From an uncultured Candidatus Pelagibacter sp. (GTDB taxonomy: Bacteria; Pseudomonadota; Alphaproteobacteria; Pelagibacterales; Pelagibacteraceae): 64,000 nt of DNA. The notes below the pieces were generated by a model. It was not told the origin of the DNA. It saw nothing but the letters and a program-made list of their open reading frames with translations, and searched no databases. This document shows positions 2,538 to 52,718 of the stretch, piece by piece (within the stretch, counting starts at the first letter, position 1; each line of letters starts with the position of its first letter). A program made the translations under genes and the position numbers. The DNA is taken from contig CAJWDL010000005.1 in assembly GCA_913030805.1 (NCBI GenBank), positions 1-64,000 on the forward strand, read 5' to 3'.

Positions 2538-2545
2538 TTAATTTA

Positions 2546-3796: not shown

Positions 3797-3802
3797 AAAA
3801 CG

Positions 3803-7503: not shown

Positions 7504-7513
7504 AGAGGAATAA

Positions 7514-8336: not shown

Positions 8337-8341
8337 AAATA

Positions 8342-10102: not shown

Positions 10103-10212
10103 TATTATTTTGTTTTTTATCTACCACAAGTTAATTAATATCTTTTCTAAAAAACCATTTTTCCAATTAATCCTATATTCATATAATATTGATATATAAA
10201 AAATATATAATT

Positions 10213-10407
10213 ATGAATGAAATTTTGGCGAAATTAAAGTACGGGTCTAATTCTTTCGAAGTACTGGAAAAAGGCAATCACGTCATTTGTGCTGTTTCGG
10301 GAAAAAAAATTTCTTTGGATAAACTTACCTATTGGAATGTTGATTTGCAAGAAGCCTATTTTTCACCTAAAGAGGCACAAATACGATTTGAAGAATTAAA
10401 AAAATGA
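10213..10407 (+). CDS. DUF2093 family protein
   Basis: This 64-residue protein matches the alphaproteobacterial DUF2093 family: KYGSNSFEVLEKGNHVICAV, then SGKKISLDKLTYWNVDLQEAYFSP with the conserved YW and QEAY. The function of the family is unknown. No signal peptide or membrane segment is seen. I chose the ATG at 10213 over an upstream TTG because it places the conserved block at the normal distance from the N terminus. It is convergent with lpxL, ending 12 nt from it. Confidence 0.8.
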   Translation: MNEILAKLKYGSNSFEVLEKGNHVICAVSGKKISLDKLTYWNVDLQEAYFSPKEAQIRFEELKK

Positions 10408-10419
10408 TAATTTACAAAT

Positions 10420-11289
10420 TTATTTCCAACGGTTGTGCGACCAAAGCCATTGTTCAGGTTTCTTTAAAATCATTTTTTCAAGCTGTTGATTAATTTCTAA
10501 TGTTAGGCCGCAAGTATCTTTCTCATAGTTCTCAGTTTTTTTGTATTCAAAGGGTTTGCAAACTGTCATTTCAAATCTACTATTCGATAATCTTTCCATA
10601 CGCAGGGGCACAATTTTGCAGTTATATTTGAGTGATATTTGAGCTGGGATAGTTGTTGTTAATGCAGGACAATTGAAAAATTCAATTTTTTTTCCTTCAC
10701 TAGTTCTTTGATCGGCTATTATAATTACCGAATATCCACTTTTGATTTTATTTAATAGTTCTCTGATGTTCGATCTTCCTTTTTTTATCATTATAGGACA
10801 TACATATTTTAATCTCAGATATTCCATGATTGGATTTAAAAATATGTTATTTAGAGGCCGATAGATTGCACAAAATCTAATTCCATATCGATTCAATTTG
10901 ATTCCTAATAATTCAAAATTTGAGAAATGGCCTGATACGAAAACTACAGGCTTATTGCTATTTTTAATTTCATCCAAATATTCCTTTCCATTTAATTTTA
11001 TCAAGTGGTTATGATTTTTTTGAAAATTATTCAAAAAAATATATTCAGAAAAGGTCCTTCCAATATTGTTCCACATACCGAGAGATATTCTTTTAATCTT
11101 TTTTTGGTCAATGTTTTTGAAACAAATCTTTAAGTTTTTTTCTATAATCCTTTTTGATCTAAGTAATGGACCAAATATTTTGGCAAGACTGCTTCCCATA
11201 AAGGATGCATTTCGAGGTCCAATAATTTTAAAAGTCATAAATAACGATAAAACTATTATAAATTGTAAAAAATATTTAAAGATTTTCAT
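10420..11289 (-). CDS. lpxL: Lipid A biosynthesis acyltransferase (LpxL/HtrB family)
   Basis: The 289-residue enzyme adds a secondary acyl chain to Kdo-lipid A on the inner face of the inner membrane. An N-terminal membrane anchor (residues 1-28) is followed by the catalytic H-x4-D/E motif as GHFSNFELLG near residue 118, the substrate motif YRPLNN, and the ADQRTSEGKKIEFFNCPA region near residue 185. It is the last gene of the ubiA-msbA-waaA-lpxK-lpxL operon and overlaps lpxK by 4 nt. Whether it is LpxL or LpxM in chain order cannot be told from sequence. Confidence 0.88.
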   Translation of the reverse strand: MKIFKYFLQFIIVLSLFMTFKIIGPRNASFMGSSLAKIFGPLLRSKRIIEKNLKICFKNIDQKKIKRISLGMWNNIGRTFSEYIFLNNFQKNHNHLIKLNGKEYLDEIKNSNKPVVFVSGHFSNFELLGIKLNRYGIRFCAIYRPLNNIFLNPIMEYLRLKYVCPIMIKKGRSNIRELLNKIKSGYSVIIIADQRTSEGKKIEFFNCPALTTTIPAQISLKYNCKIVPLRMERLSNSRFEMTVCKPFEYKKTENYEKDTCGLTLEINQQLEKMILKKPEQWLWSHNRWK

Positions 11290-12215
11290 ATAATTTTTTT
11301 TAATTCATTAATAAATTCTTCTTTTTTATCAATAAGTAATTCGAATTTTAAATATTTAATATTTTTTTTATCTTCATTAGTTAGTCTAAAATAATCTTTT
11401 TCGGTAGTTACCAAACATGCGTCCAACTCTCTAGCTCTTTTGTTCAGGTTTGTAATATCTATTTTTTTAAAATTATAATGATCGGGAAATTTAAAAGTTT
11501 CTATCATTTCTATATTATTATTTTTTAAAAGATCAAAAAAATTTTCAGGGCTTCCTATGCCCGCGAATGCTATGACTTTTCTATTTGTCATATTATCTAA
11601 ATTTGTTAGTTTATATTGAGTATAAAAAATTTTAATTTCAGGATTAAATTTATTTATAGTTTTTTCAAATTCCAAATTTTGGTTTCCGTTAATAAATACA
11701 TAGTTGCATCTTTTTAATGCATTAAGTTTTTCTCTAAGTGGTCCTGAAGGAATTACAAAACCATTTCCAATCCACTGTTTTTCATTAAAACAAATTATAG
11801 ATATATCACTTTTTACACTTGGATCTTGAAAACCATCATCAAAAATAGCCACTTTAAAATTATTACTAATCAATGACTTTACTGCCTCCGATCTTTGTTT
11901 ATTTGAAAATACTTTACCAATATTTTCTAACAATTTTGTTTCATCGGCATATTTTCCATGGCGCTTTTTTATAAATGCTGGATTTAATTTTAGTGACTTA
12001 AGTATTTGAAATATTTCTATACAAAGAGGTGTTTTACCAGTTCCACCTAGATAAATATTTCCAACTAAAATTATTGGAATGTCAAACTTCTCTTTTTTTG
12101 AATATTTAAATTTTAATAAGTTAATTAAATTAATTATTAGGCTGAAGGGAAAAAAAAAGTAAGGCCAAACCGAAAATTCCCTACTATCCCAAAATTTTGG
12201 TTTGTAAACTTTCAT
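11286..12215 (-). CDS. lpxK: Tetraacyldisaccharide 4'-kinase
   Basis: LpxK phosphorylates the 4' position of the lipid A disaccharide at the inner membrane. The 309-residue protein has an N-terminal hydrophobic segment (about residues 15-35) and a Walker A motif NIYLGGTGKTP near residue 53. The DDGFQDPSVKSD block near residue 125 is typical, as is the TTEKDYFRL motif near residue 268. It overlaps lpxL and waaA by 4 nt each, so the three are translationally coupled. Confidence 0.95.
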   Translation of the reverse strand: MKVYKPKFWDSREFSVWPYFFFPFSLIINLINLLKFKYSKKEKFDIPIILVGNIYLGGTGKTPLCIEIFQILKSLKLNPAFIKKRHGKYADETKLLENIGKVFSNKQRSEAVKSLISNNFKVAIFDDGFQDPSVKSDISIICFNEKQWIGNGFVIPSGPLREKLNALKRCNYVFINGNQNLEFEKTINKFNPEIKIFYTQYKLTNLDNMTNRKVIAFAGIGSPENFFDLLKNNNIEMIETFKFPDHYNFKKIDITNLNKRARELDACLVTTEKDYFRLTNEDKKNIKYLKFELLIDKKEEFINELKKII

Positions 12216-13474
12216 TTCTTATTTACAATAAATTTTTTTATTTCCAAATATATATTTTTCAATATAGATTGACCTATAGAATTTATTTGTTTCTTTAATT
12301 TTTTACTCTCTTTTTCTTTTGAACTTAAGTCTTTTAATAAAAATTTTTTTAGATTGTTAATAGTATTAATTTTTTTTGAAATATTAAAAAATGCCAAATA
12401 GGAGTAAACTTCTTTAAAATTATTTATGTGGGGGCCATGGTAAATTGAACAACCCATTCTAGTAGGTTCAATTGGATTTTGACCACCATGATTAATTAGT
12501 GATCCACCTAAAAAAACAGATTTAGAAATATTAAAAAATTTTTGCGTTTCTCCAAAAGTGTCTACAAGATATATATCTATGTTACTGTTAAATTTTGATT
12601 TATTTGTATGTAAATGTATTTTTAAATTCATCTTATTTAATTCTTTAACTATTTCATCAATGCGATGAATATGTCTTGGTATTATTATTAAAATAACATT
12701 TTTTAATCTTTTTTTTAATTCAATGTGAGTTTTGCCACAAAAAATTTCTTCACCAACGTGGGTACTAGTAGCACACCATATTTTTTTGTAATGAAATATT
12801 TTTAAAATATTTTTATCAAGCTTATCTGAAGAAAGAGAAGCGGGACTTGAGAATTTTAAATTTCCAAGGTTTTTAATTTTTTTTACACCAAAATTCGTTA
12901 AATATTTTTCAGTTTCTTTATTTTGAGACAAACATATATCAAAACTATCAAAAATTGATTTTGCAAAATTAGGAATCTTTTTCCAGCGTAAATAAGTTTT
13001 GGTAGTAATTCTTGCATTTAATAATACTAAAGGAATCTTCCTGTTTTTTATGTTTAAAATAAAATTTGGCCAAATTTCCGATTCAACAAAAATAACTAAG
13101 TTTGGAAGCCAATGATTTAAGAATTTTTTTGCAAAAATATCTTTGTCAAACGGAAAAAATTGGTGAATTATTTTTTTTGATTTTATTTTTTTTTCAAATA
13201 TTTTTGATGAACTTAGAGTATTTGTCGTTAAAAGAATTGACTTGATTTCTTTAATTTTTTCAAGCTTCCCCAGAAGAGGAACGATACTTAGTAGCTCACC
13301 TACACTAGCAGCATGAAACCATACCAGTTTGCCCTGGGGTTTCTTTTTTTTTATTATACATAATTTTTCTTTATACCTATTCTTATCCTCTTTTTGTTTA
13401 TGGATTCTTATTTTAAGAATAATTGGAGCAAATAGACAAACTACATTTATTATCAACCTGTATAATATTAACAT
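12212..13474 (-). CDS. waaA: 3-deoxy-D-manno-octulosonic acid transferase
   Basis: WaaA (KdtA) attaches Kdo residues to lipid IVA. The 420-residue GT30 protein has an N-terminal membrane segment, the catalytic FHAASVGEL motif near residue 55 with the general-base Glu, and the C-terminal nucleotide-sugar region GGSLINHGGQNPIEP near residue 335. With lpxK and lpxL it shows that this bacterium makes Kdo-lipid A. The spacing to msbA is 3 nt and the overlap with lpxK is 4 nt. Confidence 0.93.
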   Translation of the reverse strand: MLILYRLIINVVCLFAPIILKIRIHKQKEDKNRYKEKLCIIKKKKPQGKLVWFHAASVGELLSIVPLLGKLEKIKEIKSILLTTNTLSSSKIFEKKIKSKKIIHQFFPFDKDIFAKKFLNHWLPNLVIFVESEIWPNFILNIKNRKIPLVLLNARITTKTYLRWKKIPNFAKSIFDSFDICLSQNKETEKYLTNFGVKKIKNLGNLKFSSPASLSSDKLDKNILKIFHYKKIWCATSTHVGEEIFCGKTHIELKKRLKNVILIIIPRHIHRIDEIVKELNKMNLKIHLHTNKSKFNSNIDIYLVDTFGETQKFFNISKSVFLGGSLINHGGQNPIEPTRMGCSIYHGPHINNFKEVYSYLAFFNISKKINTINNLKKFLLKDLSSKEKESKKLKKQINSIGQSILKNIYLEIKKFIVNKK

Positions 13475-13477
13475 TAA

Positions 13478-15214
13478 TTAGTGAGGTCTTAATTGTTTAT
13501 TATAAAAGTTTTTATAAATTTTTGAATTTTTTAAAAGATAATCGTGATTCCCTTCAGCTACAACTTTGCCATTCTCGATTATAAAAATTTTATTTGCTCT
13601 TAATACAGTAGAAAGTCGATGGGCTATAATAATAGTTGTTTTATTCTTTGTTAGATACATTATTGCTTCCTGAATTTTATGTTCAGTATCAGCGTCCAAT
13701 GATGAAGTAGCTTCATCAAGTAAAATAATTGGCGCATCTTTAAGGATAGCTCTTGCAATGGATATTCTTTGTTTTTCACCACCAGATAACCGAACACCGT
13801 TTTCTCCTATTAGTGTATCGTATTTTTCTGGTAACCGTTCTACAAAGTCATGTGCAGCAGAAAATTTACTCGCTTCAAGTATCTTTTCTTTCGATGCATC
13901 AGAGTTTGCGTAAGCTATATTTGATAAAACTGTATCATCGAATAATGTGATATCTTGACTTACTAAAGAAATATTTTTTCTTAAGGAAAATAAGGTTACT
14001 TTGCGTATTGATTGATTATCAATCAGTATTTCACCACTTGAAGCGTTATAAAATCTTGGGATCAAATTCATTATAGTGGTTTTTCCAGCCCCGCTATGAC
14101 CAATCAAAGCTATGATATTTCCGCCTTCTATTTTGAGATTTATAGATTTTAATATTTCTTTATCATCATCATAGGCAAAACTTACATCTTTGTATTCGAT
14201 TTTTGCCTTATCAATTACCAAATCTTTGGCATTTATATTTTCGTCAATTTTTCTTTTTAGATCAATAACTTCATAAACTCTTCTAGCCCCAGCCAAGCCT
14301 TGTTTTATACCTATGTTAAGTGTGGCTAAAGCTCTCACAGGTTGATACGACAACATCATTGCTGCAAGAAAGGAAAAAAAATTGTTTATTTCAAGTGTGC
14401 CGCTATGGACCATTCTAGCAGAATAATAAATTAAACCTGCTATCATCAATCCAGTCAAAACCTCCATAATTGGGGTGCTTCTAACAAGAATGATTCCCAT
14501 TTTTTGACCTTTTTCTTTTGCTTCTTCTAAAAACTTATCTGCCCTTGCAAATTCAAATTGTTCTTTTTGATAAGTTTTAATTATTTTGGAATTTTTTAAT
14601 ATTTCCAAAAAATAAGATGTGATCATTCCTATTTTTATTTGAAGTTCAGCTGTTATTTTGCCCATTCTTTTTCCTAGGGATTTTGACGTAATTGTTGCAA
14701 GCGGAATCATTATAATTGCAAATAATGAAAGTCTCCAATTTTGATAAAACATCAAACTTAATAAAGCGATTAAGGTTAAACTGTCCTTTATTAAACTCAA
14801 TACTGATGAGCTTACCAATTGAATAATTAGTGCGGCATCAAATGTCAAGTTTCCTATAAATTTTCCTGAATGTTTTTTTTCAATCACCTGTGTGTCCGAA
14901 TTTATTATTGATTCGAGTAAATTTTGCTGAATCTCTTTTTCAATTGACGCACCAACTTTTATCATCATGGTTCTTACAAGATAAAGTGAGATTCCTTTAA
15001 TAGTAAAGGCTAATATTATTGTGATAGGAATTAATAACAAGAAATCTGTATTTTTTTCTACAAATATTTTTTTAATTGCTGGATCAAGCAACCAAGCTAT
15101 AGCAGCGGTACTTCCGGCAACTAGTAACGAAAGAAATAATGCAAAAAAAAATTTATTAAGATATTTATTAATGTAATTATTATATAATCTTTTTATAATT
15201 TCTTTGTCAGTCAT
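13478..15214 (-). CDS. msbA: Lipid A export ABC transporter (MsbA-type)
   Basis: The 578-residue half-transporter has six membrane segments (about residues 20-310) fused to one ATPase domain. The ATPase shows Walker A GHSGAGKTT near residue 372, signature LSGGEKQR near residue 479, Walker B IILLDEATSSLD near residue 500, and the switch histidine in IIAHRLS. MsbA homodimers flip lipid A-core across the inner membrane. The position between ubiA and waaA in a lipid A operon makes MsbA far likelier than a drug exporter. Confidence 0.88.
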   Translation of the reverse strand: MTDKEIIKRLYNNYINKYLNKFFFALFLSLLVAGSTAAIAWLLDPAIKKIFVEKNTDFLLLIPITIILAFTIKGISLYLVRTMMIKVGASIEKEIQQNLLESIINSDTQVIEKKHSGKFIGNLTFDAALIIQLVSSSVLSLIKDSLTLIALLSLMFYQNWRLSLFAIIMIPLATITSKSLGKRMGKITAELQIKIGMITSYFLEILKNSKIIKTYQKEQFEFARADKFLEEAKEKGQKMGIILVRSTPIMEVLTGLMIAGLIYYSARMVHSGTLEINNFFSFLAAMMLSYQPVRALATLNIGIKQGLAGARRVYEVIDLKRKIDENINAKDLVIDKAKIEYKDVSFAYDDDKEILKSINLKIEGGNIIALIGHSGAGKTTIMNLIPRFYNASSGEILIDNQSIRKVTLFSLRKNISLVSQDITLFDDTVLSNIAYANSDASKEKILEASKFSAAHDFVERLPEKYDTLIGENGVRLSGGEKQRISIARAILKDAPIILLDEATSSLDADTEHKIQEAIMYLTKNKTTIIIAHRLSTVLRANKIFIIENGKVVAEGNHDYLLKNSKIYKNFYNKQLRPH

Positions 15215-20319: not shown

Positions 20320-20559
20320 ATGAATACGGGATATACAGTTTTGGCCTCAATAATCGGTCTTTTAATATTATTTTTGTTTCTATCATGGTTACATGTTTCA
20401 GCGAAATATGTAGGGGTAAAAAATAATAAGAATTTGACACGATGGAAAAATATTATTGATGCAAAAAATGAAAATCTTGGATGGTTCGATTTGGGCAATC
20501 ACATAATAGTTATAGGAGCTGTTTTGCTTGCAATATTTATTGTAATAAATGCACAGTAA
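20320..20559 (+). CDS. Small two-helix membrane protein heading oxidase operon 1
   Basis: The 79-residue protein has two predicted membrane helices (about residues 7-24 and 60-77) joined by a lysine-rich loop, predicting both ends outside and the loop in the cytoplasm. It precedes coxB by 15 nt and is probably an accessory subunit or assembly factor of this oxidase. Its first 29 residues match the first 29 of the Rieske protein at 50064 at 18 positions (YT.L..II.LLILFL.LSW). Oxidase operon 2 has no copy. I prefer the ATG at 20320 to the adjacent one at 20317 because it aligns with the Rieske start. No family recognised. Confidence 0.75.
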   Translation: MNTGYTVLASIIGLLILFLFLSWLHVSAKYVGVKNNKNLTRWKNIIDAKNENLGWFDLGNHIIVIGAVLLAIFIVINAQ

Positions 20560-20574: not shown

Positions 20575-21399
20575 ATGACCATTGCATTTGTACTTTTTTT
20601 AGTTGTTGTTGGAACTCTAATATTTCATATTTGGAGTCCTTGGTGGCTGACGCCTTTAGCCTCAAACTGGAGTGGTATGGACGAAACCCTTCTCCTAACA
20701 TTCTGGGTTACCGGTGGTGTATTTATGGCCGTCGGTTTGTTTATGGTTTATTGTGTATGGCGTTACCGTTATCAAAAAGATAGAAAATCAGAATATAAAC
20801 CTGAAGATAAAAAATTAGAATTTCACTTAACATGGATAACAGCAGTTGGCGTTGTGGCGTTGCTTGCGCCAGGACTCATTGTTTGGAATAAGTTTGTAAC
20901 AGTTCCTGAGAATGCGGTTAAAGTCGAAGTTATGGCCTATCAGTGGGGTTGGAATTATAGATTAGCGGGAGAAGATGAAATTTTAGGCAAAACCAGCATC
21001 CATAACATATCGGATGATAATCCTTATGGATTGGATTTAGACGACCCGAATGGCAAAGATGATTTGCTTGTTGAAGATGCAGATCTTCATTTGCAGATTG
21101 ATAAACCTGTAAAAGTACTTTTGCGCTCTATAGATGTACTTCATAACTTTTATGTTCCAGAGTTTAGAGCAAAAATGGACATGGTTCCTGGTATGATTAC
21201 TTTCTACTGGTTCACTCCAACCAAAACAGGAGAATACGAAATTCTCTGTGCTGAACTTTGTGGAACCGGCCACTATGCGATGCTTGGAACTGTTGTGGTG
21301 GAAGAAGAAAGCGATTATTCCAACTGGCTGGCTCAACAAACATCTTTTGAACAAATCCTGGCTCAAAACAAAACAATACAATTAACGGAAAAGCAATAA
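20575..21399 (+). CDS. coxB: Cytochrome c oxidase subunit II (operon 1)
   Basis: Subunit II takes electrons from cytochrome c at the periplasmic CuA site. The 274-residue protein has three hydrophobic N-terminal segments (about 2-20, 40-62, 87-107) and a cupredoxin domain with CuA ligands His190, Cys225, Cys229, His233 and Met236 (CAELCGTGHYAM). The YQWGWNYR aromatic motif near residue 121 is the electron-entry region. The CuA-coding stretch 21118-21357 is identical at every base to 25776-26015 in the second operon, while the N-terminal half is clearly diverged. It precedes coxA by 18 nt. Confidence 0.96.
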   Translation: MTIAFVLFLVVVGTLIFHIWSPWWLTPLASNWSGMDETLLLTFWVTGGVFMAVGLFMVYCVWRYRYQKDRKSEYKPEDKKLEFHLTWITAVGVVALLAPGLIVWNKFVTVPENAVKVEVMAYQWGWNYRLAGEDEILGKTSIHNISDDNPYGLDLDDPNGKDDLLVEDADLHLQIDKPVKVLLRSIDVLHNFYVPEFRAKMDMVPGMITFYWFTPTKTGEYEILCAELCGTGHYAMLGTVVVEEESDYSNWLAQQTSFEQILAQNKTIQLTEKQ

Positions 21400-21417: not shown

Positions 21418-23238
21418 ATGTCTGATGAATTTGATTATAAAATAGAAGCTAAAGCAGCAGATGCAACAACAGCTGATGCTTCAGCTCCACCGATTGATTA
21501 TGTTCCGCCAGCAGAAAGACCAGAACAAGAACTTTATCATTCAAAAAGTTGGTGGACGACATATGTGTTTTCCCAAGATGCAAAATATATTGGGGTTCAG
21601 TATACTTGCGTTGCAACCGCAATTGCTGTGGTGGGACTAATACTTTCATTGATGATGAGAACTCAACTTGCTTTTCCAGGTTTAAACGTTCTCGATCCTT
21701 CAACTTATTATCAGTTTGTTACCATGCATGGAATGATCATGGTGGTATTCTTTCTTACCGCATTATTTTTAGGAGGGTTTGGAAATCTTCTTATTCCATT
21801 GATGTGTGGAGCTCGCGATATGGTTTTCCCTTATGTGAATATGTTGAGTTTTTGGATATTTGTGTTGGCCATATTACTTTTAGTTTCTAGTTTTTTTGTT
21901 CCCGGCGGACCCACAGGAGCTGGATGGACTTTATATCCTCCCCAAGCGATTACAGTAGGTACACCAGGTAATTTATGGGGCATGGTGATGATGCTAGCCT
22001 CTTTAGTCTTCTTTGTGATTGGTTTTACAATGGGAGGCTTAAACTATGTAATTACCGTTTTACAAGCCCGTGCTCGTGGCATGACTTTAATGAGATTGCC
22101 ACTTAGTGTTTGGGGTATTTTTGTTGCTACTGTCTTAGCGCTTTTAGCTTTTCCAGCACTTTTGGTTGGTGGTATAATGCTATTACTTGATGCAGTACTT
22201 GGAACAAGTTTTTTCATGCCCGAAATGATTTCGATGGGTGAAAAACTTTCAACTGAAGGAGGTAGCCCAATTTTATTTCAACATTTATTCTGGTTTTTTG
22301 GTCATCCTGAAGTTTATATTGTAGCATTACCAGCTTTTGGAATTGTTTCTGATTTAATCTCGGTTCATGCGAGAAGAAATCTTTTTGGTTACCGAATGAT
22401 GGTTTGGGCTATTGTTGCCATTGCAGCTTTAAGTTTCATTGTTTGGGCTCACCACATGTATGTAGCGGGAATGCGTCCATGGTTCGGATACTTTTTTGCA
22501 ACCACAACTTTGATTATTGCTGTTCCAACTGCAATTAAAGTTTACAATTGGGTTCTAACTCTCTGGAGAGGAAATATTCGTCTTACAGTTCCAATGTTGT
22601 TTACTTTAGCTTTCATTATAACATTTCTTAATGGGGGAATAACCGGTTTGTTTTTAGGAAATGTAGCCATCGACGTACCTTTATCGGATACTTATTTTGT
22701 AGTGGCTCACTTCCATATGGTCATGGGCATTGCACCCGTTCTTGTCGTATTCGGAGCCGTATATCACTGGTTTCCTCTGGTTACAGGACGTATGTTAGAC
22801 GAAGGTTTGGGAAAAATTCACTTTTGGATTACCTTTGTTGGAACCTATATGATTTATACGCCAATGTACTACCAAGGCTTCTTGGGAGTGCCTCGAAGAT
22901 ATTTTGAAATGTACGAAAGTTCATATGCTTCCACAGTTGGCTTAAATGTATTTATAACAGTAGCAGCTTTAATTGTTGGATTATCTCAGCTCATATTTTT
23001 TTATAATATAATTAACAGCGCTAGAGCTGGAAAAAAGGCAAAAAAAAATCCTTGGGACGCAAACTCTTTAGAATGGCAAACACCCGAAATGCCGCCAAAA
23101 CATGGAAATTGGGGCAACGAACTACCCGTGGTTTATCGATGGCCGTATGATTTTGGTGTTCCTGGAATTGACAAAGATTATATTCCACAAAATGTTTCTC
23201 CAAGCCAGGTTAGTGGAGCAAAGGCTGACAAAACATGA
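21418..23238 (+). CDS. coxA: Cytochrome c oxidase subunit I (operon 1)
   Basis: The 606-residue catalytic subunit has about twelve helices and all the metal ligands: low-spin heme ligand His104 (TMHGM), CuB ligands His296 (FFGHPEVYIV), His345 and His346 (WAHHMY), and heme ligands His431 and His433 (AHFHMVMG). The glutamate in GHPEV and the lysine in PTAIKVYNW correspond to D- and K-channel residues, so it is an A-type proton-pumping oxidase. A hydrophilic C-terminal extension (about residues 530-606) is shared with the operon 2 copy. Its stop overlaps the next start (ATGA). The 136-bp block 22981-23116 is identical to 27671-27806. Confidence 0.97.
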   Translation: MSDEFDYKIEAKAADATTADASAPPIDYVPPAERPEQELYHSKSWWTTYVFSQDAKYIGVQYTCVATAIAVVGLILSLMMRTQLAFPGLNVLDPSTYYQFVTMHGMIMVVFFLTALFLGGFGNLLIPLMCGARDMVFPYVNMLSFWIFVLAILLLVSSFFVPGGPTGAGWTLYPPQAITVGTPGNLWGMVMMLASLVFFVIGFTMGGLNYVITVLQARARGMTLMRLPLSVWGIFVATVLALLAFPALLVGGIMLLLDAVLGTSFFMPEMISMGEKLSTEGGSPILFQHLFWFFGHPEVYIVALPAFGIVSDLISVHARRNLFGYRMMVWAIVAIAALSFIVWAHHMYVAGMRPWFGYFFATTTLIIAVPTAIKVYNWVLTLWRGNIRLTVPMLFTLAFIITFLNGGITGLFLGNVAIDVPLSDTYFVVAHFHMVMGIAPVLVVFGAVYHWFPLVTGRMLDEGLGKIHFWITFVGTYMIYTPMYYQGFLGVPRRYFEMYESSYASTVGLNVFITVAALIVGLSQLIFFYNIINSARAGKKAKKNPWDANSLEWQTPEMPPKHGNWGNELPVVYRWPYDFGVPGIDKDYIPQNVSPSQVSGAKADKT

Positions 23239-23858
23239 AAAATTTTTTTAAATTAATATCCCAAAAACCTTGGGAGTCATCTCAAGCACAAATTGATAAC
23301 AAGCATGATGGAAAAACTTTGGGTTTGAGCAGAGAAAAACTTGGTGTTAGGACCGTAATGGTTGTTAGCACCGTTATTTTTTCGTTTTTCGTTGTTGCAT
23401 ATGCTGACAGAATGTTAATCCATGACTGGAAAAGCATGCCAGAACCATGGTTGCTTTGGATTAATACAATTATTTTGATGATTAGTAGTTATGTTTTTCA
23501 TAAAACTAAAATTGCATCGGATCTCAATGACTACGAAAAAATAAAAAAAGGCCTCTTTATGGTTGGATTTTTGACCTTTGCATTTCTTTTAGGACAATCG
23601 ATAGTATGGTATCAACTTTTAAAGCTAGGCTATTTTGCTTCCACAAACGTAGCTAATGCATTCTTCTATCTACTCACCACGATACATGGTTTACATCTGC
23701 TCGGTGGATTAATTTTTTGGGGACTAGCTACATCAAAGTTACTAAAAGGTAATTATAAAATATCAAATATGCAACGCACTATTGAACTTTGTGCTATTTA
23801 TTGGCACTTTTTGCTTTTTGTTTGGTTAATATTATTTGGCTTAATGTTATTTACATAA
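23235..23858 (+). CDS. Extra subunit III-like protein of oxidase operon 1
   Basis: The 207-residue membrane protein has about five helices and subunit III features: FYLLTTIHGLHLLGGL near residue 142 and CAIYWHFLLFVWLILF near residue 186. It is distinct from the subunit III gene that follows it, and operon 2 has no counterpart. An order of II, I, III-like, III recalls the alternative CoxMNOP oxidase of rhizobia, where two genes encode subunit III-type proteins. It may be a structural subunit particular to oxidase 1. It starts within the coxA stop codon. Confidence 0.8.
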   Translation: MKNFFKLISQKPWESSQAQIDNKHDGKTLGLSREKLGVRTVMVVSTVIFSFFVVAYADRMLIHDWKSMPEPWLLWINTIILMISSYVFHKTKIASDLNDYEKIKKGLFMVGFLTFAFLLGQSIVWYQLLKLGYFASTNVANAFFYLLTTIHGLHLLGGLIFWGLATSKLLKGNYKISNMQRTIELCAIYWHFLLFVWLILFGLMLFT

Positions 23859-23872: not shown

Positions 23873-24577
23873 ATGGCTGATACTTTAGATAAACTTCCAA
23901 AAGGAATTCATGGTCTTACTCACGACTGGAGTTCAGATCAAACAGCATTTAAAAAAGTTCCCTGGGGCAAGGCAATGATGTGGATTTTTCTCTTAAGCGA
24001 TACATTTATTTTTAGTTGTTTTTTAATTTCTTTAATGACTGCTCGTGCATCCACAACTGCAGAGTGGCCAAATGCAAGTGAAGTTTTTGGATTAAGTGTT
24101 TTCGGTACAAGCGTTCCTCTTCTTTTAATCGCGATCATGACCTTTGTTTTAATTTCAAGCAGTGGAACGATGGCGATCGCCGTGAAATATGGTTACGAAA
24201 AAAATCGTAAATTGTGTGCACTGTTCTTGTTATTGACAGCTATAGGTGGCGCTACTTTTGTTGGCATGCAAGCATTCGAATGGACTAAATTAATTGTTCA
24301 CGAAGGTATTCGTCCCTGGGCAAATCCTTTTGGTGCTGCTCAATTTGGCTCTTTCTTTTTTATGGTTACTGGTTTTCATGGAACGCATGTTTCAATAGGG
24401 GTAATTTTTCTGCTTATTATGGCTAGAAAAACTTGGCGAGGAGATTTTGATACTGGCCAAAGAGGATTTTTCACCAGTATGAAATCTAACTATGAGGCAA
24501 TTGAAATTATGGGACTCTACTGGCACTTCGTTGACCTGGTGTGGGTCTTTATTTTTGCATTCTTCTATCTATGGTGA
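23873..24577 (+). CDS. coxC: Cytochrome c oxidase subunit III (operon 1)
   Basis: The 234-residue protein matches heme-copper oxidase subunit III: WIFLLSDTFIFSCFL near residue 37, MQAFEWTKLI near residue 126, FFFMVTGFHGTHV near residue 161, and the C-terminal IMGLYWHFVDLVWVFIFAFFYLW. Subunit III stabilises the catalytic core and its proton supply. It lies 14 nt after the III-like gene and is followed 10 nt later by the subunit IV gene. The 3' end and the spacer to subunit IV are nearly identical in both operons. Confidence 0.94.
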   Translation: MADTLDKLPKGIHGLTHDWSSDQTAFKKVPWGKAMMWIFLLSDTFIFSCFLISLMTARASTTAEWPNASEVFGLSVFGTSVPLLLIAIMTFVLISSSGTMAIAVKYGYEKNRKLCALFLLLTAIGGATFVGMQAFEWTKLIVHEGIRPWANPFGAAQFGSFFFMVTGFHGTHVSIGVIFLLIMARKTWRGDFDTGQRGFFTSMKSNYEAIEIMGLYWHFVDLVWVFIFAFFYLW

Positions 24578-24587: not shown

Positions 24588-24920
24588 ATGGCACAAGAAA
24601 AACAACAAGAAGTTAAAACACATAAACTTGGTGTTTACATGTGGATCTGGGGACTGTTGTTTGTTTTCAGTTTCTTTTCTTACATGGTTGATTATCTAAA
24701 TTTTGAAGGTTTGCTCAGATGGACTTTGATTGTATTCTTTATGTTTTCAAAAGCTGCATTAATAATGGCAATATTTATGCATCTGTTCTGGGAACGATGG
24801 GCCATTGTTAACGTTCTTTTATGGCCAATGTCCTTTATTCTAGTTTTTATCGGAATAATGGTTGCAGAGTCTGAATACACTTTCTTTACACGACTTTTTT
24901 ATTTTATAGTAGAAACCTAA
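24588..24920 (+). CDS. coxD: Prokaryotic cytochrome c oxidase subunit IV (operon 1)
   Basis: The 110-residue protein has three hydrophobic segments and a MAIFMHLFWERWAIVNVLLWP block near residue 65, as in the bacterial subunit IV / CyoD-like family. These small subunits assist assembly of the oxidase. The ATG at 24588 follows an AGGT Shine-Dalgarno-like stretch in the spacer; a longer in-frame extension upstream would run through coxC and is unlikely. It is the last gene before the terminator at 24951-24986. Confidence 0.85.
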   Translation: MAQEKQQEVKTHKLGVYMWIWGLLFVFSFFSYMVDYLNFEGLLRWTLIVFFMFSKAALIMAIFMHLFWERWAIVNVLLWPMSFILVFIGIMVAESEYTFFTRLFYFIVET

Positions 24921-25226: not shown

Positions 25227-26066
25227 ATGAATATATTTGTCGTGATCTTGTTTCTTGCAGTTGTTGTTGGAACTGTTTTGTTTCATATATTATCTCCCTG
25301 GTGGTTTACACCGTTAGCTTCAAACTGGAGCAGTATTGATAATGCAATTCTCATTACATTTTGGGTTACCGGGTTCGTATTCGTGGCTCTTGGTTTGTTT
25401 TTAGTTTATTGTTTGTGGAAGTATCAATACAAAAAAAACAGAAAAGTAGAATATAAGCCTGAGAATAAATCATTAGAAGCTATACTTGTTGTTGTATCAG
25501 CGATTGGCGTTATAGCCTTACTTGCTCCAGGCCTTTCTGTTTGGAATGATTATATAAAAGTTCCGAAAGGTGCTGCTAAAGTTGAGGTTTTGTCTTATCA
25601 GTGGGGTTGGAATTTCAGACTGCCTGGAGAAGATGGTGCCTTAGGCAAAACCAGCATTCATAACATAACAGATGATAATCCTTACGGGCTGGATTTAAAC
25701 GATCCGAATGGCAAAGATGATTTACTTGTTCAAGATGCGGATCTTCATTTACAGGTTGGTGTTGATGTAGAATTTCTTTTGCGCTCTATAGATGTACTTC
25801 ATAACTTTTATGTTCCAGAGTTTAGAGCAAAAATGGACATGGTTCCTGGTATGATTACTTTCTACTGGTTCACTCCAACCAAAACAGGAGAATACGAAAT
25901 TCTCTGTGCTGAACTTTGTGGAACCGGCCACTATGCGATGCTTGGAACTGTTGTGGTGGAAGAAGAAAGCGATTATTCCAACTGGCTGGCTCAACAAACA
26001 TCTTTTGAACAAATCTTGGCTCAAAACAAAATTAAAAACAAAACAATACAATTAGCGGAAAAGTAA
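25227..26066 (+). CDS. coxB: Cytochrome c oxidase subunit II (operon 2)
   Basis: The 279-residue paralogue of the protein at 20575 has the same layout: three hydrophobic N-terminal segments, a YQWGWNFR motif near residue 123, and CuA ligands in CAELCGTGHYAM (first Cys near residue 227). The N-terminal half differs at many residues from copy 1, yet the CuA-coding 240 bp are identical. A 12-bp insertion near the 3' end adds four residues. A very strong Shine-Dalgarno (GGGGGAGG, 25210-25217) precedes the ATG. It is the first gene of the FNR-boxed operon. Confidence 0.96.
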   Translation: MNIFVVILFLAVVVGTVLFHILSPWWFTPLASNWSSIDNAILITFWVTGFVFVALGLFLVYCLWKYQYKKNRKVEYKPENKSLEAILVVVSAIGVIALLAPGLSVWNDYIKVPKGAAKVEVLSYQWGWNFRLPGEDGALGKTSIHNITDDNPYGLDLNDPNGKDDLLVQDADLHLQVGVDVEFLLRSIDVLHNFYVPEFRAKMDMVPGMITFYWFTPTKTGEYEILCAELCGTGHYAMLGTVVVEEESDYSNWLAQQTSFEQILAQNKIKNKTIQLAEK

Positions 26067-26110
26067 AATGAATTTAAAATTATATTTAACAATGATGCGA
26101 GGTAACAAAG

Positions 26111-27928
26111 ATGCCCGAAGGTGATGGATACGACTATAAAATAGAAGCTAAAGCATATACGGCGTCTTCATCGGGCGCTTCTGTTTCGCCAGCTGAAAGC
26201 CCTGATCAAGAACTTTATCATTCAAAAAGTTGGTGGACGACATATGTGTTTTCCCAAGATGCAAAATATATTGGAATTCAGTATTTCTGTGCTGCAACCG
26301 CAATTGCCGTACTGGGGTTGGTGCTTTCGGTGTTAATGAGAGTGCAACTTGCTTATCCTGGCTTAAATGTTCTTGATCCTTCAACGTATTATCAAGCTAT
26401 CACAATGCACGGGATGATCATGGTGATATTTTTTCTTACCGCATTATTTTTAGGAGGGTTTGGAAATTTTCTTATTCCACTGATGTGCGGAGCTCGCGAT
26501 ATGGTTTTCCCTTATGTGAACATGATGAGCTTTTGGATATTCCTGCTATCTTTGTTAGTTTTAGTTGCAAGCTATTTAGTTCCTGGCGGACCTACAGGAG
26601 CTGGATGGACTTTATATCCTCCACAAGTAATTACAGCAGGCACACCAGGAAATTTATGGGGTTTAGTATTAATGTTGGTATCCATTGTTCTATTTGTAGT
26701 TGGTTTTACAATGGGTGGCTTAAACTATGTAATTACCGTTTTACAAGCTCGTACCCGTGGCATGACTTTAATGAGAATGCCACTTAGTGTTTGGGGCATT
26801 TTTGTTGCTACCATTATTGCGCTTTTGGCATTTCCTGCGCTCCTAGTTGGTGGTTTAATGCTGTTACTTGATACTGTGCTCGGAACAAGTTTCTATATGC
26901 CAGCTATAATTGCAACTAGTAATTTTGGTAACGAAGTTTCAACAGAGGGAGGTAGCCCACTATTGTTTCAACATTTATTCTGGTTTTTTGGTCATCCTGA
27001 AGTTTATATTGTAGCTTTGCCCGCTTTTGGAATTGTATCTGATTTAATTTCAGTTCATGCAAGGAGAAATATTTTTGGTTACCGAATGATGGTTTGGGCT
27101 ATTATTGCTATTGCAGCCTTAAGTTTCATTGTTTGGGCTCACCACATGTATATAGCGGGATTCACTCCATGGTTCGGATTCTTTTTTGCATCCACAACAT
27201 TAATGATTGCGATTCCAACGGGTATCAAAATGTACAATTGGCTTCTAACTCTCTGGAGAGGAAATATTCGTTTTACAGTTCCAATGCTGTTTGCATTGGC
27301 CTTTTTTATAACATTTCTTAATGGAGGATTAACAGGCATGTTTATGGGTAATGTGGGTACTGATATAGCCTTATCGGATACTTATTTTGTAGTAGCTCAC
27401 TTCCATTTTACTATAGGTATTGCACCCGTTCTTGTCGTATTCGGAGCCGTATATCACTGGTTTCCTCTGGCTACAGGACGTATGTTAGATGAAGGTTTGG
27501 GAAAAATTCACTTTTGGATAACATTCGTTGGCGCCTATATGATTTATTTTCCAATGCATTATCAAGGATTGCAAGGGGTGCCTCGAAGATATTTTGAAAT
27601 GTATAACAGTTCACAGGCTTCTTCATCTGGTCTGAATGAATTTATTACAATAGTCACTATAGTTGTTGCGTTATCTCAGCTCATATTTTTTTATAATATA
27701 ATTAACAGCGCTAGAGCTGGAAAAAAGGCAAAAAAAAATCCTTGGGACGCAAACTCTTTAGAATGGCAAACACCCGAAATGCCGCCAAAACATGGAAATT
27801 GGGGCAGAACACTACCGGTAGTCTATCGTTGGCCGTATGATTTCAACGTTCCAGGTGCCAGCAAAGATTATATTCCGCAAAACGTTTCTCCAAGCCAGGT
27901 TCGTGGAGCAAAAGCGGAGAGAACATGA
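26111..27928 (+). CDS. coxA: Cytochrome c oxidase subunit I (operon 2)
   Basis: The 605-residue paralogue of the operon 1 catalytic subunit keeps every heme and CuB ligand (TMHGM, FFGHPEVYIV, WAHHMY, AHFHFTIG) and the channel lysine in PTGIKMYNW. It differs at its acidic N terminus and in the loop near residue 265. Blocks of perfect DNA identity with copy 1 (for example 26207-26274 and 27671-27806) alternate with clearly diverged stretches. The leader before its ATG (GCGAGGTAACAAAG) is also nearly the same as in copy 1. Confidence 0.97.
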   Translation: MPEGDGYDYKIEAKAYTASSSGASVSPAESPDQELYHSKSWWTTYVFSQDAKYIGIQYFCAATAIAVLGLVLSVLMRVQLAYPGLNVLDPSTYYQAITMHGMIMVIFFLTALFLGGFGNFLIPLMCGARDMVFPYVNMMSFWIFLLSLLVLVASYLVPGGPTGAGWTLYPPQVITAGTPGNLWGLVLMLVSIVLFVVGFTMGGLNYVITVLQARTRGMTLMRMPLSVWGIFVATIIALLAFPALLVGGLMLLLDTVLGTSFYMPAIIATSNFGNEVSTEGGSPLLFQHLFWFFGHPEVYIVALPAFGIVSDLISVHARRNIFGYRMMVWAIIAIAALSFIVWAHHMYIAGFTPWFGFFFASTTLMIAIPTGIKMYNWLLTLWRGNIRFTVPMLFALAFFITFLNGGLTGMFMGNVGTDIALSDTYFVVAHFHFTIGIAPVLVVFGAVYHWFPLATGRMLDEGLGKIHFWITFVGAYMIYFPMHYQGLQGVPRRYFEMYNSSQASSSGLNEFITIVTIVVALSQLIFFYNIINSARAGKKAKKNPWDANSLEWQTPEMPPKHGNWGRTLPVVYRWPYDFNVPGASKDYIPQNVSPSQVRGAKAERT

Positions 27929-27952
27929 TGAAAGAAAGAAGGTAAATAACAT

Positions 27953-28651
27953 ATGAATCGTAGCACATTACCAAAAGGATGGGATGGCTTTGCACACGAC
28001 TGGGCCGCAGACCAAAAAGTCTTTAAAGGTATGTCTTGGGGCAAGGCAATGATGTGGATTTTTCTGCTTAGCGATACATTTATTTTTAGTTGTCTTTTGA
28101 TCTCATTGTTGACGGGTCGTGCATCCACAGCAGTATCGTGGCCAGATGCAAGTGTGGTTTTTGGACTTGAGGTTTTTGGTGTAAGCGTTCCTCTTCTCCT
28201 AATTGCGATAATGACCTTTGTTTTAATTTCAAGTAGTGGAACAATGGCGATTGCCGTGAAGTATGGATATGAAAAAAATCGTAAATTATGTACAATATTT
28301 TTGCTGTTGACTGCCCTGTGCGGTGCTGCTTTTGTTAGCATGCAAGCATTCGAATGGACCAAATTAATTGTTCACGAAGGAGTTAGTCCTTGGGGCAATC
28401 CTTTTGGAGCGGAACAATTTGGTGCCTTCTTTTTTATGATCACTGGTTTTCATGGAACGCATGTTACCATTGGGGTAATTTTTCTACTGATCATGGCAAG
28501 AAAGGTTTGGAGAGGAGATTTTGATTCAGGTAGAAGAGGTTATTTTACTACCATGAAATCAGATTATTTAGCAATTGAAATTATGGGACTCTACTGGCAC
28601 TTTGTAGATCTGGTTTGGGTCTTTATTTTTGCATTCTTCTATCTATGGTGA
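27953..28651 (+). CDS. coxC: Cytochrome c oxidase subunit III (operon 2)
   Basis: The 232-residue paralogue of the protein at 23873 shares WIFLLSDTFIFSCLL, MQAFEWTKLI, FFFMITGFHGTHV and the C-terminal IMGLYWHFVDLVWVFIFAFFYLW. Here it directly follows subunit I; the extra III-like gene of operon 1 is missing. An AAGAAGG Shine-Dalgarno lies in the 24-nt spacer. The final stretch and the spacer into subunit IV match operon 1 almost base for base. Confidence 0.94.
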   Translation: MNRSTLPKGWDGFAHDWAADQKVFKGMSWGKAMMWIFLLSDTFIFSCLLISLLTGRASTAVSWPDASVVFGLEVFGVSVPLLLIAIMTFVLISSSGTMAIAVKYGYEKNRKLCTIFLLLTALCGAAFVSMQAFEWTKLIVHEGVSPWGNPFGAEQFGAFFFMITGFHGTHVTIGVIFLLIMARKVWRGDFDSGRRGYFTTMKSDYLAIEIMGLYWHFVDLVWVFIFAFFYLW

Positions 28652-28662
28652 GGTAAAAAACA

Positions 28663-28989
28663 ATGTTGAAACATTATAAAAAGCAATCACACGAAATTGG
28701 TGTTTATCTATGGATCTGGGGACTGTTGTTTGTTTTCAGTTTCTTTTCCTACATGGTTGATTATTTGAATTTTGAAGGAACATTTAGGTGGACTTTAATT
28801 GTAATATTTATGCTTTCAAAAGCTGCATTAATAATGGCAATATTTATGCATCTGTTTTGGGAACGTTATGCAATTGTTAATGTTCTTTTATGGCCGATGA
28901 CGCTCATGTTGCTTTTTGTTGGGATAATGGCTGCAGAATCAGAGTATACTCTCTTTACGCGACTATTTTATTTTATAGCAGGAAGCTAG
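28663..28989 (+). CDS. coxD: Prokaryotic cytochrome c oxidase subunit IV (operon 2)
   Basis: The 108-residue paralogue of the protein at 24588 has three hydrophobic segments and the MAIFMHLFWERYAIVNVLLWP block. The N terminus differs from copy 1, while the middle is close to identical, including long runs of identical codons. It is followed 34 nt later by the heme O synthase gene. Confidence 0.85.
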   Translation: MLKHYKKQSHEIGVYLWIWGLLFVFSFFSYMVDYLNFEGTFRWTLIVIFMLSKAALIMAIFMHLFWERYAIVNVLLWPMTLMLLFVGIMAAESEYTLFTRLFYFIAGS

Positions 28990-29023: not shown

Positions 29024-29929
29024 ATGACCAATATTAAATCAAAAGCATTAAAATTAGACTTATTTGCTTATCTAAAGGTTTTATTCGATCTCATGAAGCC
29101 TCGTGTGATGTCATTAGTAATTTTTACTTGTGTAGTGGGCTTACTGATCGCACCTGTTGAAGTGGATTTTTGGAATGCTTTTGTTTCTATTCTTGCCGTT
29201 GCTTTGGGATCCGGAGCTGCCGGAGTATTAAATATGTGGTACGAAGCAGACTTAGATTCGGTGATGACTAGAACATGCCTTAGACCCATACCTACTGGAA
29301 AAGTTACAAAAAAAGAGGCTTTGATTTTCGGAATTCTGGCGTCAGTGATTTCTGTCACTATTCTATATTTGTTTTCAAATTTGGTTGCTACATTAATCTT
29401 GGTTACTACAATTTTATATTATGTTTTTATCTATACAGTTTGGCTTAAGCAAAAAACTTCACAAAATATTGTTATTGGTGGAGTATCAGGTGCCTTACCC
29501 CCAGTAATTGGGTGGGCTGTAGCAACAGGCAATATATCTTTTGAATCAATGATATTATTTTTAATTATTTTTATTTGGACACCTTCTCATTTTTGGGCGT
29601 TGAGTCTTTATAAAATGGAAGATTATAAAAATGCAAATATTCCAATGCTTCCCGTAATTTCGGGAGTTAAAGTGACAAAACTAAATATTTTTGTTTATGC
29701 TTTACTATTGTTTCCAATTATTTTAGCCCCATTCTTTTTAAATTATTTTGGTACAATATATTTATTAATTTCAGGAACGCTTGCTACTTACTATATATAT
29801 ATTTGTTACAAATTATTTAGAGTACAAGATTCGAATTTAGAGGAAAAAATAGCTAAACAAGTATTTGGATTTTCAATTTTATTTCTTTTTTTGGTTTTTA
29901 CTTCTATTTTAATAGACAGCATTGTATAA
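29024..29929 (+). CDS. ctaB: Protoheme IX farnesyltransferase (heme O synthase)
   Basis: CtaB (CyoE) adds the farnesyl tail to heme b to give heme o, needed by heme-copper oxidases. The 301-residue UbiA-superfamily protein has about eight or nine helices, with the first Asp-rich motif MWYEADLDSVMTRTCLRPIP near residue 66 and a second in the WTPSHFWALSLYKMEDY region near residue 185. Its place behind oxidase operon 2 suggests joint expression, but both oxidases would depend on it. No heme A synthase (ctaA) or Cox11 (ctaG) gene is in the window. Confidence 0.95.
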   Translation: MTNIKSKALKLDLFAYLKVLFDLMKPRVMSLVIFTCVVGLLIAPVEVDFWNAFVSILAVALGSGAAGVLNMWYEADLDSVMTRTCLRPIPTGKVTKKEALIFGILASVISVTILYLFSNLVATLILVTTILYYVFIYTVWLKQKTSQNIVIGGVSGALPPVIGWAVATGNISFESMILFLIIFIWTPSHFWALSLYKMEDYKNANIPMLPVISGVKVTKLNIFVYALLLFPIILAPFFLNYFGTIYLLISGTLATYYIYICYKLFRVQDSNLEEKIAKQVFGFSILFLFLVFTSILIDSIV

Positions 29930-50063: not shown

Positions 50064-50675
50064 ATGAGCATATCATATACAATTTTGGTGACGATTATTG
50101 CCCTTTTAATTTTATTTTTATGTCTCTCATGGGTATTTGTTTCTATTAAAGTTGCAAATAAAGAGCAGAAGGAAGAAACTGCTGAAAGAAGATATTTTTT
50201 ATATACCGCCTCTTATGCTTTAGGAGCGGTTGCTGTTGGGGCGGCCGCATGGCCATTAATTGATCAAATGAATCCCGATGCATCTGTTAAAGCTTTGGCT
50301 ACTACAGAGGTTGATATAAGCAGTATTGGCTTAGGTAAAACAATCACAGTACTTTGGAGGGGTAAACCAATTTTTATAAGAAGAAGAACCCAGGAAGAAA
50401 TAAGTGAAGCTCAAAATGTAAATCTAAATGAATTGAAAGATCCTCAAAAAGATGAGGATAGAGTAAAAAAATCAGAGTGGCTTGTAATGACAGGAGTTTG
50501 CACACATCTTGGGTGTGTCCCTTTAGGCAACAAGGGAGATTTTGGAGGTTGGTTTTGCCCATGTCATGGGTCGCACTATGATACCTCAGGAAGAATAAGG
50601 AAGGGTCCTGCACCCACAAATCTTGAAATACCCAAATATGAATTTGTTGACAACAATACAATTAAAATAGGTTGA
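50064..50675 (+). CDS. petA: Ubiquinol-cytochrome c reductase Rieske protein with an extra N-terminal helix
   Basis: The Rieske [2Fe-2S] subunit passes electrons from ubiquinol to cytochrome c1. Cluster ligands are in [10 protein letters not shown] near residue 147 and CPCHGSH near residue 167. The usual Tat-type anchor begins at [11 protein letters not shown] near residue 43 and continues through [11 protein letters not shown]. Ahead of it is an added hydrophobic helix (about residues 6-27), so the protein is about 203 residues, roughly 25-40 longer than usual. This first helix resembles the small protein at 20320. N-out, loop-in, C-out topology is predicted. It starts the petABC operon. Confidence 0.93.
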
Positions 50676-50680: not shown

Positions 50681-51922
50681 ATGAGTGAAGAAAAGTATAT
50701 ACCCAAATCAAAGCTTGGACAGTGGTTTGATAGCAGATTGCCATTATTATCTTTGGCACATCATCTAAGAGATTATCCAACTCCCAAGAATTTAAATTAT
50801 TGGTGGACTTTTGGAGCGATTCTTACTTTTTGTTTAATTGCCCAGATAATTACAGGCATAGTTTTAGCAATGCACTATGTAGCTCATGCAGATTTAGCTT
50901 TTGAAAGTGTTGAACATATCATGAGAGATGTAAATTATGGTTGGTTAATAAGGTACTTTCATGCAAACGGTTCCTCAATGTTTTTCTTGGCAGTTTATGT
51001 ACATATTTTTAGAGGACTGTATTACGGCTCGTATAAATCACCCAGAGAAATGATTTGGATTATTGGAATGCTTATTTACATATTAATGATGGCAACAGCA
51101 TTTATGGGTTATGTTTTACCTTGGGGACAAATGAGTTTTTGGGCAGCTACTGTTATAACAAGTTTATTCAGTGCCATACCTATTGTTGGAGACAGTATTG
51201 TAGGATGGCTTTGGGGAGGATATGCGGTTGGTAGTCCAACATTGACAAGATTTTATAGCTTACATTATTTGTTGCCATTTTTAATTTTTGCACTAGTAGT
51301 TTTACATATTTGGGCACTTCATATTCCCGGGAACACTAATCCTGTTGGTATCGATATTAAACAGCCATCAAAAGACACCGTTCCATTTAGCCCCTACGTT
51401 GCTGTTAAAGATTTATATGCTTTGATAATTTTTTTAATTATTACCGCAGGTTTTGTTTTCTTTGCACCAAATATTTTGAGTCATCCAGATAATTATATTA
51501 AAGCAAATCAAATGGTTACACCTACACATATAGTACCCGAATGGTACTTACTTCCTTTTTATGCAATTTTAAGGGCTGTTCCGGATAAACTAGGTGGCGT
51601 GGTTGTGATGTTTGCTTCTTTGTTTATATTAATGTTTTTACCTTGGCTGGATACTTCTAAGGTTAGATCGGCTGTATTCAGGCCACTGTACAAAATATTT
51701 TTTTGGGTATTAGTTATTGACGTTATAGTTCTTGGTTATATGGGTGCCAAACCTCCAGAAGGTCTATATTTACTTATTGGTAGGGCTGCAACTATTTACT
51801 ATTTTGCACACTTTATTTTGGTAATGCCAATATTAGGATTTAAAGAAAAAACTACGCCACTTCCTATAAGTATTTCTGATCCTGTACTGGACAGTGATAC
51901 AAAAACAACTAATTACAGGTGA
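50681..51922 (+). CDS. petB: Cytochrome b of the bc1 complex
   Basis: Cytochrome b holds the Qo and Qi quinone sites in the inner membrane. The 413-residue protein has about eight helices, paired heme histidines in the [22 protein letters not shown] region near residue 85 and the [22 protein letters not shown] region near residue 190, and the Qo motif [12 protein letters not shown] near residue 286. I chose the ATG at 50681, 5 nt after the petA stop; a TTG at 50672 is possible but weaker. Confidence 0.96.
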
Positions 51923-51929
51923 CAATTTT

Positions 51930-52718
51930 GTGTTAAAAAAATTAAAGATTATTATAAAAATTTTATTTATTTATCCGATAATTATTGTTTCTGCCAATAA
52001 TAGCATGGCAGCAGAAGGTTTAGATTTACTTAAAAATAAATGGAGTTTTGAGGGTTTATTCGGAACCTTTGACCGAGCTTCTTTAAGGAGAGGTTATCAA
52101 GTTTACAACGAGGTGTGTTCCGGTTGCCATTCTATGAAATTGTTAAGTTATAGAAATTTATCAGAAAAAGGTGGACCAGAATTTTCACGAGAAGATTCAA
52201 AAAATATTGCCGCAAGTTTTGAGGTAATTGATGGACCAAACAGTGAAGGGGAGATGTTTACTCGTCCAGGAAGATTATCTGACAAATTTGTGAAACCATA
52301 TCCAAATGTTCAAGCAGCTGAGGCAGCAAATGGAGGAGCATATCCTCCTGACATGTCTGTTTTAATAAAAGCTAGAAAGGATGGAGCAAATTATATTTAT
52401 TCTATTCTTTTAGGATACGAGGATCCTCCCGAAGGTTTTGAATTAGATGAGGGAGTTTATTATAATAAATATATGCCCGGACATAATATAAAAATGCCAA
52501 ATGTTCTTTTCGATGGATTATTGGATTATGCTGATGGAACTGAAGCTACAACACAGCAGATGGCAAAAGACATTACCACATTCCTAACTTGGGCTTCAGA
52601 ACCAAGTTTAGAAGCAAGACATAAAATTGGATTTAAAGTCATTTTATATTTAATTATATTGGCCTTTGTAGTTCATCTGAGTTTGAAAAAGCTTTGGTCA
52701 CGTATTGAATCTAAATAA
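51930..52718 (+). CDS. petC: Cytochrome c1 of the bc1 complex
   Basis: Cytochrome c1 carries electrons from the Rieske protein to soluble cytochrome c. The 262-residue protein has a signal peptide (residues 1-27, ending near SMAAEG), the heme motif VCSGCHSMK near residue 56, the conserved YPNVQAAEAANGGAYPPD block, the axial-ligand region HNIKMPNVL near residue 177, and a C-terminal membrane anchor (about 235-255). I chose the GTG at 51930, which begins directly with the signal peptide; a GTG at 51894 would overlap petB. It overlaps convergent ychF by 21 nt. Confidence 0.95.
   Translation: MLKKLKIIIKILFIYPIIIVSANNSMAAEGLDLLKNKWSFEGLFGTFDRASLRRGYQVYNEVCSGCHSMKLLSYRNLSEKGGPEFSREDSKNIAASFEVIDGPNSEGEMFTRPGRLSDKFVKPYPNVQAAEAANGGAYPPDMSVLIKARKDGANYIYSILLGYEDPPEGFELDEGVYYNKYMPGHNIKMPNVLFDGLLDYADGTEATTQQMAKDITTFLTWASEPSLEARHKIGFKVILYLIILAFVVHLSLKKLWSRIESK

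Follow-up and report, generated by a model that had tools for sequence, protein, structure and literature searches.

Complex III-IV supercomplexes occur in Actinobacteria and in mitochondria, and sequence rarely reveals how the partners came to bind. The actinobacterial Rieske protein QcrA of Streptomyces (Sco2149) is inserted into the membrane by a dual Sec/Tat route (PMC5449189), and in Corynebacterium QcrA is a permanent component of an obligate III-IV supercomplex (PMC8795186). In Rhodobacter capsulatus, CcoH and the membrane-anchored cytochrome cy sit at the interface between bc1 and cbb3 (PMC7876108).

The stretch of DNA analyzed here (the window, 64,000 nucleotides of a SAR11 genome bin, G000, that is 79.9% complete with 3.6% contamination) encodes a Rieske protein, PetA, with an extra N-terminal helix, and a 79-residue protein at the head of a cytochrome oxidase operon, for which we use the working name SMALL (Table 1). 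PetA resembles actinobacterial QcrA in having an extra membrane helix before the twin-arginine (RR) motif and an anchor that is presumably Tat-dependent. However, QcrA has two extra helices and an N-in orientation, whereas PetA has one and is predicted to be N-out, and PetA scores 25 bits against the NCBIfam QcrA model (cut-off 275). Unlike those of QcrA, the extra helix of PetA is homologous to an oxidase companion. CcoH and cytochrome cy are small oxidase-linked membrane helices between complexes III and IV, but they gave no profile match to SMALL or the PetA helix, the oxidase there is of the cbb3 type rather than aa3-like, and the Rieske protein there does not include the helix.

Table 1. 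Features of the window, with coordinates, strand and the basis of each assignment.
Feature	Coordinates	Strand	Basis
SMALL, two-helix companion of the oxidase operon, 79 aa	20320..20559	+	conserved family; synteny RsmE-SMALL-coxB-coxA in g1, g2, g10, g13, g14
SMALL helix 1 (residues 5-27), common to PetA	20332..20400	+	alignment, profiles, shuffles; AlphaFold helix 3-34
SMALL helix 2, DLGNH motif, absent from PetA	20488..20553	+	family alignment; AlphaFold helix 56-78
coxB1, oxidase subunit II	20575..21399	+	Pfam COX2, 56 bits; CuA-type motif CAELCGTGHYAM read in sequence
coxA1, subunit I, replacement type	21418..23238	+	Pfam COX1, 463 bits; 45% identical to canonical SAR11 CoxA
coxCa, first subunit-III-like protein	23235..23858	+	Pfam COX3
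coxCb, second subunit-III-like protein	23873..24577	+	NCBIfam subunit III families, below cut-off
cox4, COX4_pro subunit, marker of the operon	24591..24920	+	Pfam COX4_pro, above cut-off
Second, partial operon copy, without SMALL and coxCa	25227..28989	+	~82% identical DNA
coxB2 (second copy)	25227..26066	+	
coxA2 (second copy)	26111..27928	+	
coxC (second copy)	27953..28651	+	
cox4 (second copy)	28663..28989	+	
ctaB, heme-related farnesyltransferase gene, end of operon	29024..29929	+	similarity to CtaB of contig C15 and relatives
petA, Rieske iron-sulfur protein, extra N-terminal helix	50064..50675	+	TIGR01416, 228 bits; Pfam UCR_Fe-S_N, Rieske
PetA extension, residues 1-41, ahead of RR motif	50064..50186	+	alignments, profiles, Rieske tree
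petB, bc1 cytochrome b, start uncertain (TTG at 50672)	50684..51922	+	ORF, gene order petA-petB-petC
petC, bc1 cytochrome c1, start uncertain	51894..52718	+	ORF, CSGCH haem motif in sequence

The names RsmE, ThrB and ThrC for the flanking genes, and PetB and PetC for the bc1 subunits, are those we presume from general knowledge and similarity.

SMALL and the start of PetA were identical at 18 of 29 residues, as a preliminary description of this DNA had stated, and the codons were the same at 12 of these 18. At the DNA level, 53 of 69 bases (77%) matched (blastn of the two regions, pairwise E 1e-11). Two helices that are both rich in leucine and isoleucine and coded by AT-rich DNA could look alike generically without a common origin, an explanation that the preliminary description had named as fatal to its proposal and that is hardly credible in light of the searches. 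When the helix was shuffled 300,000 times, with shifts of up to three positions allowed, the top score was 14 compared to 18 for the real pair, and of 2,698 hydrophobic 29-mers taken from the window and contig C15, the highest-scoring one outside the family reached 9. Against the whole of its own genome, SMALL matched only its homologue on contig C15 (E 2e-10) and PetA (2.8e-6), with the next hit at 0.13. Across the order (397 genomes), extended PetA proteins were matched by the profile of SMALL at 3.5e-11 and 1.6e-9, and the matches taken as unrelated started near 1e-3. Additionally, the profiles of the SMALL family and of the PetA extension aligned over 35 columns (hhalign, 98.0%, E 2.3e-13), with PetA residues 1-35 as the aligning part. 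Shuffles, searches and profile-profile alignment thus single out this pair, rule out chance or composition and show that SMALL helix 1 and the PetA extension are homologous. They bear out the earlier idea of a helix module common to complex III and one oxidase. Ongoing gene conversion between SMALL and petA was rejected, as pairs from the same genome were no more similar than pairs across genomes.

Residues M1, Y5, L8, F18, Y20, W23, and S27 are conserved in both SMALL helix 1 and the PetA extension. Exceptions at Y20 are a cysteine in the window's PetA and a phenylalanine in the window's SMALL, and at W23 a phenylalanine or isoleucine in the clade IIa types. Conservation by position was correlated between the two helices (Spearman 0.47, p 0.012).

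Proteins of the SMALL family have approximately 79-88 residues and two helices joined by a Lys-rich loop. AlphaFold placed the helices of the window's protein at residues 3-34 and 56-78 with modest confidence (pLDDT 68); a second in-frame ATG lies at 20317. Helix 2, which starts with DLGNH in most members, is the more conserved of the two. The motif is invariant in SMALL types I and II but no longer present in type III. The histidine of DLGNH lies close to a membrane helix and may be a ligand for a cofactor or a contact with another subunit. No family name was found for SMALL in Pfam or NCBIfam, nor was there a useful PDB match, and none of the assembly-factor families in Pfam and NCBIfam matched it. 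As a small helical accessory protein of a cox operon, SMALL is reminiscent of bacterial oxidase subunit IV (COX4_pro, PF03626, and the Rhodobacter-type COX4_pro_2). However, Pfam gave no match to COX4_pro for any of 20 family proteins and none to COX4_pro_2, and the operon already has a COX4_pro gene of its own.

Outside SAR11, no convincing match to SMALL was found in 337 genomes of the class and 224 of the phylum; the sole borderline hit (E 0.008) lay inside a frame of 1212 amino acids. By these searches, SMALL is an unnamed two-helix family found here in Pelagibacterales (SAR11) only. The nearest named relatives of the gene come from the single cells SCGC AAA288-G21 and SCGC AAA288-N07, which we take to be subclade Ic from the deep ocean, and from Pelagibacteraceae AG-464-P07; these relatives assign the window to SAR11. 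The set from g2 and g10 is linked by similarity to sequences such as those of a clade IIa genome recovered from an oxygen minimum zone. Contig C15 of the bin carries another SMALL-family protein with a Pelagibacter-type oxidase operon. It was rejected as a source of a third paralogue of the window's own genome, because it brings second copies of RsmE, ThrC, RnhA, and ThrB around that operon and its CoxB nests inside Pelagibacter CoxB proteins; the contig is almost certainly a contaminant, apparently from another SAR11 strain.

SMALL was found next to one kind of oxidase operon. Both SMALL and cox4 were present in 72 of 397 genomes of the order, cox4 without SMALL in one (G006), and SMALL without cox4 in none, a count that leaves out seven weak SMALL matches (E 9e-4 or worse). 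In G006, the operon has no SMALL and the gap between RsmE and coxB is just ~146 bases. Other g3 genomes and g8 have the same CoxA type and gave no clear SMALL match in a single-sequence search. The gene occupies three positions, all of which adjoin the oxidase operon: at its head (RsmE-SMALL-coxB-coxA-coxCa-coxCb-cox4-ctaB in g1, g2, g10, g13, and g14), between cox4 and ctaB (Pelagibacter), or downstream of cox4 in convergent orientation (G030 and G040, with a diverged second helix). Its retention beside the operon despite these changes of position argues for a functional tie. The gene orders show that SMALL is linked to this oxidase operon. Operon linkage with strict co-occurrence was taken as the mark of a subunit, and both were found across the 397 genomes; the most probable role of SMALL is that of a structural subunit, which makes it a candidate new subunit of an oxidase present in 73 of the 397 sampled genomes.

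With a subunit I of the COX1 family and a COX2-type subunit II that carries the CuA-type motif, the operon encodes an aa3-like cytochrome c oxidase, although the NCBIfam scores are a little below cut-off (CtaD 658, cut-off 671; CoxB 147.2, cut-off 147.7). The canonical SAR11 aa3 oxidase (coxB-coxA-ctaB-ctaG-coxC-surf1) occupies the same site, and in the loci read both operons lie between RsmE and ThrC. In contrast to the canonical enzyme, to whose CoxA that of the window is ~45% identical, the window's operon has two subunit-III-like genes, a COX4_pro gene and SMALL. A canonical CoxA query matched 94 relatives, in which each CoxA was either 78-100% or 43-46% identical; both kinds occurred together only in G040. 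In that genome (locus 1691-14493), the canonical coxA and ctaB are separated by the second operon, which lies in inverted orientation; this nesting is possibly an intermediate of the exchange. Comparison of the loci shows that the replacement oxidase took over the chromosomal site of the usual, ancestral SAR11 oxidase, and one genome retains both kinds at this fixed site; no description of this exchange was found in the literature searched. Only the replacement CoxA was present in the window genome, as the sole cytochrome oxidase type found, so SMALL goes with the only oxidase type found there and not with one of several. The ~80% complete bin yielded neither Cox11 nor SURF1, both of which go with the canonical SAR11 oxidase, and the replacement enzyme may assemble in their absence.

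PetA scored 228 bits against TIGR01416 (cut-off 97.4) over residues 41-203, and residues 1-40 lie outside the model. Its cluster-binding motifs, CTHLGC and CPCHGSH, show little or no variation in the alignment. PetA departs from the single-anchor pattern by a second hydrophobic helix ahead of the RR motif, where ordinary relatives have one; a poor single-sequence AlphaFold model placed helices at 3-37 and 40-68. The hydrophobicity of helix 1 was 2.5-3.0, compared to 1.3-1.8 for the Tat anchor, and the N terminus has no charged side chain. The Tat anchors of ordinary Rieske proteins did not differ in hydrophobicity from those of extended ones. In petA of the four own-genus genomes, the stretch from codon 9 to the RR motif holds no start codon, so a normal short protein cannot start there; elsewhere, alternative starts are present at codon 24 (ATG, G017) or codon 19 (TTG, G014 and G016).

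The extended Rieske protein was found in G000, G001, G002, and G004 (own genus, g1), G014 (g11), G016 (g13), and G017 (g14), and in none of the other relatives with a Rieske match. The PetA N-terminal profile matched 225 of 337 genomes of the class, and among the matches listed only the window's covered the extension, which agrees with the earlier remark that the extra helix is unusual for a Rieske protein. No description of an extended SAR11 Rieske protein was found in the literature searched. The seven extended proteins grouped as one clade when the Rieske core was used for the tree (support 91/92; trees of short proteins have moderate support), and this single clade shows a single origin of the extension. 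Of the seven genomes with the extension, six have the oxidase locus assembled, and each of these carries SMALL; the G014 assembly is without coxA. The co-occurrence that the preliminary description had wanted checked is therefore non-random, and since the extension arose only once it carries little statistical weight.

The preliminary description had further read the stand-alone protein as a copy of the Rieske helix. The distribution shows the reverse direction: SMALL is older and wider across SAR11 and has a second, more conserved helix, and the Rieske extension, confined to four genera, is the derived copy. The extension was identical to SMALL of the same genera at 13.9 of 27 positions on average, and to other SMALL types at 9-11. 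Likely, SMALL helix 1 was duplicated ahead of petA in the ancestor of g1, g11, g13, and g14, so that part of an oxidase companion became part of the Rieske protein after the lineage had exchanged its oxidase. Purifying selection on the extension is shown by dN/dS values of mostly 0.10-0.37; two comparisons of near relatives gave values near 0.6, and four pairs were saturated.

The earlier assignment of both proteins as hairpins with N-out, Lys-rich loop in and C-out fits hydrophobicity and charge and is kept here as a prediction; for SMALL the charged loop would be inside and both termini outside. As the Rieske domain must reach the periplasm behind the Tat anchor, a single extra helix would give an N-out orientation. 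We infer that the extra PetA helix would be inserted N-out via Sec/YidC, after which the usual anchor and the iron-sulfur domain would follow through Tat.

The function that we rank first, with a probability of roughly 45%, is docking of complex III to the oxidase by the Rieske helix. Helix 1 of SMALL, a SAR11-specific companion and probably structural subunit of the replacement aa3-like oxidase, would have been fused in frame before the Rieske protein and would now bind an equivalent surface, on the oxidase or on SMALL itself, and keep bc1 close to the cell's only cytochrome oxidase. Binding to an equivalent surface seems most likely because the fused helix retains residues kept by SMALL helix 1 (Y5, L8, F18, Y20, W23, and S27). 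The ranking rests on this retention, on the source of the piece, which is a companion of the sole oxidase type, and on the interface helices of the Rhodobacter III-IV complexes. The copying of the helix hints at a physical coupling of the two enzymes. More tentatively, the grafted helix could be a genetically encoded III-IV tether of deep-ocean SAR11, binding the site of SMALL helix 1 or its partner. Three findings count against docking. The extension has a single origin, helix 2, which carries the most conserved motif, was not copied, and g2, g10, g4, and g5 run the same oxidase and SMALL alongside an ordinary Rieske protein, which shows that electron transfer does not require the helix.

Rather doubtful, but next in rank, is that the extension serves membrane insertion: taken over as an N-out anchor, it would use Sec/YidC to hold the nascent Rieske protein in place until Tat moves the folded domain, with no contact to the oxidase. 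The strong helix 1 followed by a weak Tat anchor is the pattern of dual Sec/Tat proteins (PMC5449189), TatC is present in the own genome, and N-out dual-targeted proteins such as the long YkuE relatives exist. However, the other SAR11 and alphaproteobacterial Rieske proteins examined do without the helix although their anchors are equally hydrophobic, and a mere anchor leaves both its source in an oxidase companion and the conservation of the same residues unexplained. It is unlikely that SMALL is an oxidase assembly factor and not a subunit, with the Rieske copy calling on the same assembly machinery or coordinating how the two complexes are put together. Small helix proteins such as CcoH did start as assembly factors (PMC7876108), and other factors may be needed where Cox11 and SURF1 were not found. 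Nevertheless, that bin is 80% complete, G006 has Cox11 and the same oxidase type but no SMALL, and SMALL matched no assembly-factor family. A chance in-frame fusion, tolerated without specific function, would agree with the single origin and with the two dN/dS values near 0.6; it is quite improbable given retention in four genera, the mostly low dN/dS and the conservation of the same residues.

Two further observations concern the oxidase loci. In G006, an ORF of 62 amino acids with one likely membrane helix (8362-8550 of the locus) lies immediately behind Cox11. The ends of coxB1 and coxB2 in the window are identical across ~180 bases, pointing to gene conversion or to an artefact of assembly, and G002 has only one copy of the operon compared to the tandem in the window.
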